64,000 nt of DNA from Flavisolibacter nicotianae (GTDB taxonomy: Bacteria; Bacteroidota; Bacteroidia; Chitinophagales; Chitinophagaceae). The notes beneath the pieces were generated by a model. That model was given only the letters and a program-made list of their open reading frames with translations, searched no databases and was not told where the DNA came from. This document shows, one piece after another, positions 36,503 through 40,438 of this stretch; positions within the stretch are counted from its first letter, which is position 1; every line of letters begins with the position of its first letter. Where the stretch lies: NCBI RefSeq assembly GCF_003628535.1, contig NZ_RBCI01000002.1, positions 558,001 to 622,000 on the forward strand, written 5' to 3'. Position numbers and translations under genes: made by a program.

Positions 36503-39283
36503 TTAAAGTGCGCCTTTAACGGTTGCAATCACTTGCCGGAGGTTCGAACTGTCCTGCCCGCCGGCCGTGGCTAATGTTTTCTGCCCGCCGCCACCACCTT
36601 TGATCAGCGGCGAAATTTTTTGCTTGATCAGGGCTGAAGCATCCAGGCCTTTTTCGGCCGCAATGGCATCATCGAAAAGCAGTACCACGCTGGCTTTGCC
36701 ATCAATCGCGGCAGCAAGGGAGATGACAGGGTTGGGCACCGCGGCCTTCAGTTCAAACGCCAGCTTTTTCAGGGCGTCGGCGCTTGGAACGTCCACCACC
36801 TCGCCAATAAAATGAGCGCCATTGATGATCTCGGCTTTTTGCACCAGGCCGTCACGAAGCGCTTTGATCTGGGCAGCCTCGAACTTTTCCAGTTGCTTTT
36901 TCAGCGCCGCATTTTCATCGTAAAGAGAAACGATTGCCTTATTGAGGTCTTTCGGGTTTTTCAATGCTTCCCGAACCACACGGACAGTAAGGAACTGTTC
37001 CTGGATATAGTTTTCGGCGGTCAGCCCGCTAAGGGCTTCAATGCGCCGCACACCGGCTGCAACGGCCGCTTCGGATTTGATCTTGAAAAATCCCAGCTCG
37101 CCGGTAGCACCAACGTGAGTGCCGCCGCAAAGTTCAATGGAATAGGTTGGATCGATTGTCACGACGCGGACAAGGTCGCCGTACTTCTCGCCAAAAAGGG
37201 CCATGGCACCGCTCTGCACCGCTTCTTCTTTCGGCATTGTGCGAATGACGACGGGAAGGTTTTCGCGGATCTTTTCGTTCACCAGCCGTTCCACTTCGTT
37301 GATCTCTTCGTCGGTCATTTTGCTGAAGTGCGAGAAGTCGAAACGGAGGTAGTCGGCGTTTACCAGCGAGCCTTTTTGTGCCACGTGTGTGCCCAGCACC
37401 TTGCGCAGCGCCGCATGCAGCAGGTGGGTGGCGCTGTGGTGAATGGCGGTGGACTGTCGCCTGCCCGCATCCACTCTTGCCGTGACTTCTCCTTCCAGTG
37501 AAGACGGAAGCTTTTCAGCAAAATGGATGATCAGGTCATTTTCCTTTTTGGTATCGACAATTTTTACTTTTTCATTTTTAATGAGGAATTCTCCCGTGTC
37601 GCCAACCTGTCCGCCGCTTTCGGCATAGAACGGTGTTTTGTCCAGCACAATCTGGTAGGCTTCTTTGCCCTTGGCTTTGACCTTACGGTATTTTAAAACA
37701 GCCGCTTTTGCTTCCAGCGAATCATAGCCGACAAATTCGTTGCTGGTGCCTTCGTTCACCACGATCCAGTCTTCGGTATCGATGGCGGTTGCGGCCCGGG
37801 AACGGTCTTTTTGTTTTTGCATTTCGGCATTGAACCCTTCTTCATCTACAACAAAGCCAACTTCTTTGGCCATTAACTCTGTTAAGTCTTTAGGAAATCC
37901 GTAAGTGTCTTGGAGCTTGAAAGCTAAATCACCCTTCAATTTTCCAAATACAATATTTAGACTTTTCTGAATCTCTTCAAGTTGTTTTCGAAGGGGCTCA
38001 AAAGTTTTATCCCATGCTTGCTTTTGCTCCTTTAGCGTACTTGTAATGCCTTTTAATTTTTCAACTGTTTCCTTTGGTAACCCAATATTTGGGAGATTTC
38101 CCATTGAATCTTTTAAGGAGGTGAAAATGCTTTCATCAAATAACTTGATACCATTTTCCAAAGTCTTAAGAAATGCTTCCTCTTCTTCGCGGATCACTTT
38201 CGCTACAAAGGCTTCCTGTTGCTTCAATTCAGGAAACACGTTTTCAAATTGTGTGGCAATCACAGGCAGCAATTGGTAAAGCAAGGGCTGCTGGTAGCTC
38301 AAATAAGAATAGTAATACCGAACCGCTCTGCGCAAAATTCTTCGGATCACATAGCCGGCGCCGGTATTCGAAGGCAACTGGCCATCGGCGATGGTGAAGG
38401 AAATCGCACGGATATGATCGGCCAGCACACGAAAGGCAATGTCGCTTTTGGTATCGGTGCCGCTGTAGTCATTTTTGGTGATCTCCTGGATCTTCGCGAT
38501 GGTGCCCGTGAAGATATCCGTGTCGTAGTTGGACTGCTTTTCCTGCAGCACCCGCACCAGGCGTTCGAATCCCATGCCCGTATCCACGTGTTTGGCCGGC
38601 AGGGGTTGCAGGCTTCCGTCTTTTAGCCGGTTGAACTGGATGAATACGTTGTTCCAGATCTCGATCACCTGCGGGTGATCAGAATTCACCAGGGTCTTTC
38701 CATCCACGCCGCTCCGTTCTTCATCCGGACGTGTGTCCACGTGAATTTCCGTACAGGGGCCGCAAGGACCGGTGTCGCCCATTTCCCAGAAATTGTCTTT
38801 TTTATTGCCCAACAAAATCCGGTCTGAAGGAATCCATTTTTTCCATTCGGCAGCCGCTTCTTCGTCTTTGGGCAGGCCGTCTTTTGCGTCGCCTTCAAAC
38901 ACCGTGACGTACAGCCTGTCCTTTGGAATTTTCAGCACAGCGGTCAGCAGTTCCCAGCTCCACTCGATCGCTTCTTTTTTGAAATAATCGCCGAAGCTCC
39001 AATTGCCCAGCATTTCGAACATGGTGTGGTGATAGGTATCCACACCCACTTCTTCGAGGTCGTTGTGCTTACCGCTCACCCGCAGGCATTTCTGCGTATC
39101 GGCAATGCGGGGATGCGGCGCAGGCCTGTTGCCCAGGAAATAATCCTTGAACTGGTTCATGCCGGCATTGGTGAACATGAGCGTGGGATCGTTCTTTACC
39201 ACGATCGGTGCGGACGGCACAATCTGGTGGCCACGGGTCGCGAAGAAATTCAAAAAAGCGCTGCGGATCTCGGCACTGGTCAT
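36503..39283 (-). CDS. alaS: Alanyl-tRNA synthetase with an atypical internal insertion
   Basis: AlaRS charges tRNA(Ala) and edits Ser/Gly mischarging. From the ATG at 39283 the protein has 926 residues: class II catalytic core with FFATRGHQIVPSAP, FTNAGMNQFKDYFLG and GMGFERLVRVLQ; editing domain with HHSATHLLHAALR and CGGTHVG, the zinc-binding His/Cys set; and a C-terminal C-Ala domain with the RKQ-type GGGGGQ motif. About residues 385-451 (38131 down to 37931), between LFDE and DLAFKLQDTYGFP, hold roughly 67 residues where E. coli AlaRS has about 12, and the DNA there is only about 34% GC. A longer frame to 39382 has no promoter and overlaps the box at 39349, so it is rejected. Confidence 0.96.
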   Translation of the reverse strand: MTSAEIRSAFLNFFATRGHQIVPSAPIVVKNDPTLMFTNAGMNQFKDYFLGNRPAPHPRIADTQKCLRVSGKHNDLEEVGVDTYHHTMFEMLGNWSFGDYFKKEAIEWSWELLTAVLKIPKDRLYVTVFEGDAKDGLPKDEEAAAEWKKWIPSDRILLGNKKDNFWEMGDTGPCGPCTEIHVDTRPDEERSGVDGKTLVNSDHPQVIEIWNNVFIQFNRLKDGSLQPLPAKHVDTGMGFERLVRVLQEKQSNYDTDIFTGTIAKIQEITKNDYSGTDTKSDIAFRVLADHIRAISFTIADGQLPSNTGAGYVIRRILRRAVRYYYSYLSYQQPLLYQLLPVIATQFENVFPELKQQEAFVAKVIREEEEAFLKTLENGIKLFDESIFTSLKDSMGNLPNIGLPKETVEKLKGITSTLKEQKQAWDKTFEPLRKQLEEIQKSLNIVFGKLKGDLAFKLQDTYGFPKDLTELMAKEVGFVVDEEGFNAEMQKQKDRSRAATAIDTEDWIVVNEGTSNEFVGYDSLEAKAAVLKYRKVKAKGKEAYQIVLDKTPFYAESGGQVGDTGEFLIKNEKVKIVDTKKENDLIIHFAEKLPSSLEGEVTARVDAGRRQSTAIHHSATHLLHAALRKVLGTHVAQKGSLVNADYLRFDFSHFSKMTDEEINEVERLVNEKIRENLPVVIRTMPKEEAVQSGAMALFGEKYGDLVRVVTIDPTYSIELCGGTHVGATGELGFFKIKSEAAVAAGVRRIEALSGLTAENYIQEQFLTVRVVREALKNPKDLNKAIVSLYDENAALKKQLEKFEAAQIKALRDGLVQKAEIINGAHFIGEVVDVPSADALKKLAFELKAAVPNPVISLAAAIDGKASVVLLFDDAIAAEKGLDASALIKQKISPLIKGGGGGQKTLATAGGQDSSNLRQVIATVKGAL

Positions 39284-39466: not shown

Positions 39467-40438
39467 ATGAAAAAAATCAAATACTACTATAACACGCATA
39501 CGCTTCGTTACGAAAAGCTGATCACGCCGTTGCGGGTGAAGCTGTTGCGGGTATTTGGTTTCCTGGCAACCGCCTTTGTCACAGCTGCGATCATCACCTA
39601 TTTCGCCTTCCGGTTTGTGGGTTCGCCTTACGAAAAAAAGCTGCGGTCCGATAACGAAACCCTGCGCTACCAACTGCAACGGCTCAACGACCGGGTGGAA
39701 GCCATCGACCAGCAAATGGCCGGCCTGGAAAAACGGGACAACGAAGTCTACCGCAGCATCTTCGAGGCACAGCCCATCCCCGACAGCCTGCGTGCCCTAC
39801 AGGCCGAAAAAGAACAGGAGATCGCCAGGGTGGAAGGCCTGTCCGAAAGCTCCCTGATTTTTTCCATCGATACCACCATCCAGCGCCTGAAGGCCCGTAT
39901 TACGTCGCAAACGAAATCGTACACCGAACTGGCCGACCTGGTAAAGAACAAAGAAAAACTGCTGGCCGGTACACCGGCGATACAGCCCGTAAGCAACAAA
40001 GACCTGAACCGGATTGCCTCCGGTTTCGGCTACCGCATCGATCCCGTTTACAAAACCATCAAGCTCCATGCAGGCCTCGATTTTGCCGCTCCGCAGGGCA
40101 CACCCATTTATGCAACAGCCGATGGCGTGGTTCGGGAGGCGGGCTTCAGTGATGGCGGTTACGGCAACCACGTGGTGGTGAACCATGGCTATGGCTACGA
40201 AACCCTTTACGGACACATGGTGCGCATCAAGGCCCGGAACGGGCAAAAGGTGACGAGGGGAGAGGTGATCGGTTACGTCGGCAGCACCGGCAAATCCACC
40301 GGTCCGCACTGTCACTACGAAGTGCACAAGAACGGGCAGAAACTGGATCCTGTTTATTTTTTCTACAACGACCTGAGCCCCCAGCAGTTTGACCAGTTAC
40401 TCAAGCGGGCCAGTTCCTCCAACCAAAGCCTGGATTAG
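39467..40438 (+). CDS. Membrane-anchored M23 metallopeptidase with coiled coil
   Basis: A 323-residue peptidase of the NlpD/EnvC-like shape. A membrane segment lies at about 27-50 (VFGFLATAFVTAAIITYFAF), followed by a coiled-coil stretch (about 58-90, LRYQLQRLNDRVEAIDQQM) and a second helical part, then the M23 domain (about 180-305). Zinc ligands are visible in HAGLDFAAPQG (H, D) and the HxH of GPHCHYEV, with GFGYRIDPVYKTIKLH leading into them. It probably cuts or remodels peptidoglycan from the inner membrane. It is divergent from alaS. Unlike the M23 gene at 4881 it has no signal peptidase site and no long C-terminal beta region. Confidence 0.92.
   Translation: MKKIKYYYNTHTLRYEKLITPLRVKLLRVFGFLATAFVTAAIITYFAFRFVGSPYEKKLRSDNETLRYQLQRLNDRVEAIDQQMAGLEKRDNEVYRSIFEAQPIPDSLRALQAEKEQEIARVEGLSESSLIFSIDTTIQRLKARITSQTKSYTELADLVKNKEKLLAGTPAIQPVSNKDLNRIASGFGYRIDPVYKTIKLHAGLDFAAPQGTPIYATADGVVREAGFSDGGYGNHVVVNHGYGYETLYGHMVRIKARNGQKVTRGEVIGYVGSTGKSTGPHCHYEVHKNGQKLDPVYFFYNDLSPQQFDQLLKRASSSNQSLD

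Follow-up and report, generated by a model that had tools for sequence, protein, structure and literature searches.

In-frame insertions into protein-coding genes are known from the Rickettsia palindromic elements. The insertion described here, in the alanyl-tRNA synthetase (AlaRS) gene alaS, is likewise in frame, but without a further copy in its own genome; its 80 residues are short for an intein, and no such domain was found in the protein or in the linker that holds the insertion. Lineage-specific variable regions of housekeeping proteins, as presented in the consulted sections of PMC9425974, are likewise length-variable regions within essential, conserved proteins, whereas at our locus the flanks diverge together with the linker, close relatives switch state, and one linker appears to be a piece of another gene. 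Within AlaRS itself, the split enzyme of Nanoarchaeum equitans (PMC10036535, consulted sections) has a chain interrupted within the tRNA-recognition domain, a domain which thus tolerates change, but its gene is divided into two, unlike the insertion studied here, and the same position is not implied. The same sections of PMC10036535 give N303 and D400 as the residues with which Escherichia coli AlaRS recognises G3:U70. In the literature searched, to the extent of the text available from it, no description of the AlaRS linker site was found.

We analysed a 64,000-nucleotide stretch of the Flavisolibacter nicotianae genome (contig NZ_RBCI01000002.1, our C2), which we refer to as the window, and in which alaS lies on the reverse strand (Table 1). 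The source genome (6.09 Mb, 70 contigs, 100% complete, 0.24% contamination) contains this single AlaRS, as far as found, and the gene sits well inside its contig. Its product reached 906.5 bits against the TIGR00344 equivalog model (cut-off 457.05), which identifies it as a bacterial AlaRS, with the match falling in two stretches. The catalytic, editing and C-terminal parts of bacterial AlaRS are all present, but the linker before the G3:U70-reading Asp, about 24 residues in bacterial AlaRS, has 80 residues in the window. Between the anchors EEEEAFLKTLENG and DTYGFP the linker has a GC content of 0.34, and the reading frame through it is open, as the earlier note had stated. The corresponding linker of E. 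coli MG1655, measured from the same anchors, is 24 residues long, giving the window an excess of 56, close to the insertion of about 55 residues first proposed; the figure of about 12 residues then given for the E. coli linker rests on other limits. The Asp that opens DTYGFP is residue 400 in MG1655 and is retained as Asp459 in the window, so the insertion immediately precedes the Asp that reads alanine identity. Judged by this adjacency along the chain, the insertion would lie near the tRNA.

Table 1 Features of the alaS locus (positions are those of the window, residues those of the alaS product).
Feature	Position	Strand	Basis
alaS, alanine--tRNA ligase, 926 aa	36503..39283	-	start ATG at 39283; TIGR00344, PF01411, PF07973, PF02272
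Linker, residues 379-458, 80 residues (insertion)	37910..38149	-	anchors EEEEAFLKTLENG and DTYGFP
Asp459, equivalent of E. coli Asp400	37907..37909	-	counted in MG1655 alaS and in the window; directly after linker
Co-diverged module, residues 373-478	37850..38167	-	window-specific residues cluster, 11/49 non-linker positions compared
Low-GC3 stretch (0.25-0.40), linker and flanks, about residues 359-498	37790..38209	-	GC3 scan
Predicted long helix, residues 357-394, from tRNA-recognition domain into insertion	38102..38215	-	AlphaFold2
Predicted added helix, residues 404-419	38027..38074	-	AlphaFold2, ten-residue block mean pLDDT 72-80
Predicted added helix, residues 424-442	37958..38014	-	AlphaFold2, ten-residue block mean pLDDT 65-82
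Neighbour gene, M23-like peptidase (named by eye)	39467..40438	+	conserved beside alaS

The added helices suggested from the sequence do form in an AlphaFold2 prediction (50 sequences, mean pLDDT 84, pTM 0.63, weak at residues 28-41, 69-78 and 83-88), in the input alignment of which only locus L038 has a linker of similar length. The insertion is modelled as an extension of the helix at 357-394 followed by two further helices, with block pLDDT values of 65-87. Foldseek placed the whole model on AlaRS structures, including the Archaeoglobus fulgidus AlaRS-tRNA complex 3wqy.

The base composition of the gene breaks at the same place. The blocks 37920-38039 (GC 0.35) and 38040-38159 (GC 0.325) together reproduce the 81 G/C in 240 bases counted earlier, and GC is mostly 0.46-0.66 elsewhere in the gene, with 0.41-0.47 at 37500-37739. 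The low-GC3 stretch starts about 20 codons before the linker and runs on for about 40 codons after it, and GC3 outside it is mostly 0.45-0.85; a second, milder dip (0.40) occurs at residues about 560-600 (37490-37610 in the window). The 120-codon GC3 dip of alaS (-0.32) is deeper than that of any other among 33 long open reading frames of the window, chosen by length rather than with a gene finder; the second largest dip is -0.15 and the median -0.08. The linker region has a mean GC3 deficit, relative to the rest of the gene, of 0.137 among long alleles (n=43) and of 0.054 among short ones (n=78); the window drop of -0.33 is the largest among these 121 loci, and the short-linker congener L006 also has a GC3 of 0.30-0.40 in several blocks near its linker. 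As low GC3 at this site is partly general across alleles, composition alone is no proof of transfer.

The earlier note had allowed that close relatives might all carry the same segment, but they do not. Matches were found in 16 of 18 genomes of the genus, the window genome included; twelve have linkers of 22-24 residues and four have long ones, of 80 (the window), 66, 58 and 56 residues, the latter three differing in sequence from the window linker. The M23-like peptidase gene adjoins alaS in 13 of the 14 genus loci tested, again including the window, and in L038 (at L015 only 21 residues of it are seen, at the end of the stretch, and at L018 none), so within the genus the linker variants are alleles of one locus. 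It was not found at the four other non-genus loci tested (L051, L052, L053 and L099).

In the family, 284 of 294 genomes gave a match. Linkers were read at the 30 best-matching loci (all 53-107 residues) and in 56 of 60 further regions (16 of these 35-126 residues), and at least 46 of the 284 genomes carry a long linker, a minimum estimate from a biased selection, since the 30 loci were those with the best full-length matches, which favours long linkers, and the 60 regions were mostly picked for long open frames. Linkers were not extracted from L148, L149, L196 and L197 among the 60 regions, or from L095 among 80 named loci. Over all loci there were 173 distinct linkers, 116 of 19-32 residues and 57 of 35-126 residues, and BLASTP of the linker cores at 1e-3 divided the 57 long ones into 45 sequence clusters. 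Some inserts are nevertheless kept, as Pedobacter cryoconitis (L109) and Pedobacter duraquae (L114) have a similar 51-residue linker, nearly unchanged from SENAI to ILKDQMV. In L192 and L194, two species with a common insert, the linker is 98% identical over 168 bases and the downstream sequence 89% over 365. The motif that follows the linker also varies: long alleles L004, L040, L043, L046 and L048 have DRYGFP or DRHGFP, in which the residue next to the G3:U70-reading Asp is altered, the other listed long alleles have DTYGFP or DTFGFP, and the short allele L064 has DRFGFP.

A phylum-wide search matched 378 of 395 genomes. Among the matches listed, there were two each in G401, G446, G485, G559 and G570, class members outside the order of the window, one of the two in G570 spanning the linker, and one in each of the others. 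In the distant families f14, f30, f36, f38 and f52 every listed member had two matches across the linker region, pointing to linkers that are longer or divergent throughout these clades of Bacteroidota.

On a tree of 117 AlaRS (41 long; residues 1-330 and 521-926, thus without the linker region; LG+G4, quick search), the long or short state requires 23 changes; 200 shuffles of the labels required 34 on average and never fewer than 26, which implies that the state is partly inherited, with much switching. Opposite states occur in tree neighbours: L099 of Taibaiella koreensis has 25 residues and its neighbour L053 has 107, and L006 has 24 next to the 80 of the window. The linker of L006, which comes from the short-allele sister species G010, is identical to that of Flavisolibacter longurius (L060). 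We also tried a scheme of two module types, which gave 33 changes against a shuffled mean of 39.9 and minimum of 35, left 17 of 117 sequences mixed, and was dropped as not clean.

The divergence extends to the residues that flank the linker. Residues of the window protein absent from ten short-allele congeners occupy 11 of 49 module positions (361-378 and 455-485) and 33 of 786 in the rest of the protein (1-360 and 501-926; p=1.6e-5). The genus provides three full-length long alleles for this count, the window, L004 and L005; the latter two gave 8/49 (p=8e-4) and 12/49 (p=1.7e-6), and of the ten short-allele controls none fell below 0.05, the lowest value being 0.068. Of the unique flank positions, 473, 475, 477 and 478 are common to the three long alleles, and 469 and 471 to two of them. 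Identity between the window and L006 is 82-97% in blocks of residues 1-330, falls to 75, 53 and 33% at 455-470, 471-485 and 486-500, and returns to 85% at 501-520 and 95% at 521-560, with other low blocks at 561-620 (70%) and 741-800 (73%); L006 and L007 share 100, 93 and 100% in the three blocks of 455-500. At 486-500, however, the window resembles other congeners and has 0/15 unique residues, L006 and L007 being the odd ones, so that a Fisher test on the module (24/65 vs 1/65, p=1.4e-7; rest 101/783 vs 123/783, p=0.13) exaggerates the signal from the window. Between pairs of alleles that differ by 22% or less elsewhere, pairs which are not independent, module divergence without the linker was 0.164 for short-short comparisons (rest 0.166, 27 pairs), 0.319 for long-short (rest 0.188, 37 pairs) and 0.312 for long-long (rest 0.185, 39 pairs).

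Individual flank residues follow the same division across genera. In 171 sequences, which are related by descent so that the p-values are inexact, Met at position +13 after the linker occurs in 26/55 long and 8/116 short alleles (p=3e-9), Trp at +19 in 25/55 long and 7/116 short, and Leu at +19 in 8/55 long and 83/116 short (p=1e-12). The Met at +13 and Trp at +19 are common to long alleles of several genera.

A search for the closest source of the patch, as the earlier note had advised, yielded no donor. The window insert has no further copy in its own genome (next DNA match E=0.13 over 18 bases), gave, apart from its own genome, only three marginal matches (E near 1e-3) among the 395 genomes searched in the phylum, and had no match in phages, viral contigs or plasmids. 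Nothing convincing was found in NCBIfam or PHROGs, and Pfam returned weak matches to helical families (best E=0.01). An identity scan, on an alignment from which identical proteins were dropped (124 of 136 kept), placed residues 451-505 of the window nearest to other genera. The best tree already contained four of the groupings considered as clades, and five others were put to AU tests, which are weak in the 69 columns of the module: the window with L006 and L007 gave p=0.16, with L004 in addition p=0.11, and all genus rows together p=0.045. Outside the module, the similarly weak test did not reject the window with L038 (p=0.245). We also considered the L038 linker as a homologous insert: the two share the edges IKLF and LAFKLQ as well as length, but the core does not exceed shuffles (658/2000 local and 107/2000 global shuffles reach the score), and this candidate was rejected. 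A profile built from the window and L038 linkers finds only these two among 284 genomes.

One long linker resembles a piece of another gene. The 65-residue linker of L052, from G162, contains SYVLGLDLGTNSIGWAIIDEEKIVDMG and matches Cas9, the similarity beginning at about the fourth residue of that protein. Family scans covered 48 of the 57 distinct long linkers, with L083 of the remaining nine scanned separately; a single member of the 48 matches TIGR01865 (Cas9; E=2.1e-13), which can only be L052, and this was the only convincing family match in the set. Searched alone against the PDB, the L052 linker recovers Cas9 chains from E=2.1e-6. Of the 293 other genomes of the family, 67 contain a sequence that matches it with an E-value no higher than 1e-3, one such match having 72% identity across 29 residues, and G162 itself encodes a separate cas9-like start with 59% identity to it over 29 residues. 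G162 is a binned draft genome, 81% complete with 4% contamination in 390 contigs. A 128-residue open frame in another genome (L213; G216, contig C2, 3297-3437) has a Cas9-like N-terminus and then departs from Cas9; G216 has a further cas9-like match on its contig C21.

The 126-residue linker of L181 (G214) includes a stretch like a viral protein (15/27 residues; score 82 vs a maximum of 58 in 500 shuffles), and at the similar stretch the viral protein has a weak match to the REase family MTES_1575 (E=0.0013, below the cut-off). The L181 linker had no match in Pfam and none better than 0.11 in the PDB, and its nuclease resemblance therefore remains a lead; in 294 family genomes it found itself alone below 0.01, and in phages and plasmids nothing. 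The 107-residue linker of L053 had no match in viral contigs or plasmids. The viral contig IMGVR_UViG_3300036766_001324 (L221) encodes, at 920-2554 on the plus strand, a protein of 544 residues that carries DUF7487 and, in its second half, weakly matches an REase family.

The patch is real, is not a product of chance and is not unique to the source genome. We read it as an allele of an exchangeable, hypervariable AlaRS module (about residues 361 to 485 or 500), the version in this lineage having most likely come by recombination, and give this reading a probability of about 0.6. The insertion or mosaic replacement of the earlier note was broadly right in that the allele differs from those of congeners, although no donor was found and low GC3 is partly general; what the sequence alone could not reveal is that the patch belongs to a large set of alleles, at a site that changes repeatedly. 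In the family of the window, the site alternates between a short linker of about 24 residues and long ones of 35-126 residues with many unrelated sequences. Recombination within the conserved stretches of alaS on both sides probably gave the lineage of the window its version, and the import would comprise the 80-residue, mostly helical stretch together with the matching changes seen in the next helix. From the sequence and its predicted secondary structure, the site may tolerate exchange because it forms the junction of two sub-parts of the tRNA-recognition domain, with the conserved motifs on either side intact. New linkers may sometimes derive from captured gene pieces, as the similarity of L052 to a Cas9 N-terminal fragment suggests. 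Of the marks of a mosaic gene, a composition break inside the gene is present, and a donor sequence was not found in the genome itself, the phylum, phages, viral contigs or plasmids. The GC3 break, wider than the insert, and the flank residues in common with long alleles of other genera favour exchange, short of proving it, and the flank changes could be compensation instead of import.

Such compensation is part of a different account, which we consider unlikely, in which a weakly constrained surface linker grew in place by insertions and drifted AT-rich while its neighbours repacked, with no exchange between lineages. The generally lower GC3 of linkers, the low GC3 of L006 in several nearby blocks and the lack of a donor for the window insert agree with this, as does the parallel alteration of positions 469-478 in three different long alleles, but the window drop is the extreme of all loci compared and extends past the linker, and drift cannot yield a Cas9 fragment. 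Diversifying selection, in which an antagonist that binds or modifies the AlaRS surface (a phage protein, toxin or inhibitor) favours new linkers and module exchange, seems improbable: it fits the recurrent switching, the 45 clusters among 57 long linkers, module divergence that is as high between two long alleles as between a long and a short one, and the well-kept insert of L192 and L194, yet the portions of the literature searched gave no antagonist of the site. We know of no antagonist of the AlaRS linker site. That the linker is a contested arms-race surface, where an AlaRS-targeting factor drives module exchange and the recruitment of any sequence, even a Cas9 fragment, into an essential enzyme is speculative and in our view quite improbable.

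It is very doubtful that the inserts are remnants of an alaS-homing mobile element (an intein or homing endonuclease) with flanks altered by co-conversion. The flanks do co-vary with the inserts, and the viral protein resembles L181 at its weak REase-family match, but the window AlaRS and its linker contain no intein or endonuclease family, only the Cas9-like one of the 48 long linkers scanned has a convincing family, and L181 itself is without a Pfam match. Many odd alleles come from fragmented genomes, G162 among them, as an artefact of assembly or contamination would predict; the window allele, however, comes from a complete and clean genome and lies well inside a contig, the single-contig genome G005 also carries a long allele, and no stops occur inside the matches among those listed, which makes an artefact the most improbable of these explanations. 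For the long linkers beside the G3:U70-reading Asp, simple tolerance is the default reading of the exchangeable module, with tuning of tRNA handling and escape from an AlaRS antagonist as candidate roles.

A bacterial group thus keeps rewriting a spot beside an alanine-identity residue, and one genome has there a new sequence similar to the Cas9 N-terminus. These natural linker swaps provide a system for asking how foreign coding sequence joins an essential protein, and the linker set also bears on whether something attacks AlaRS.
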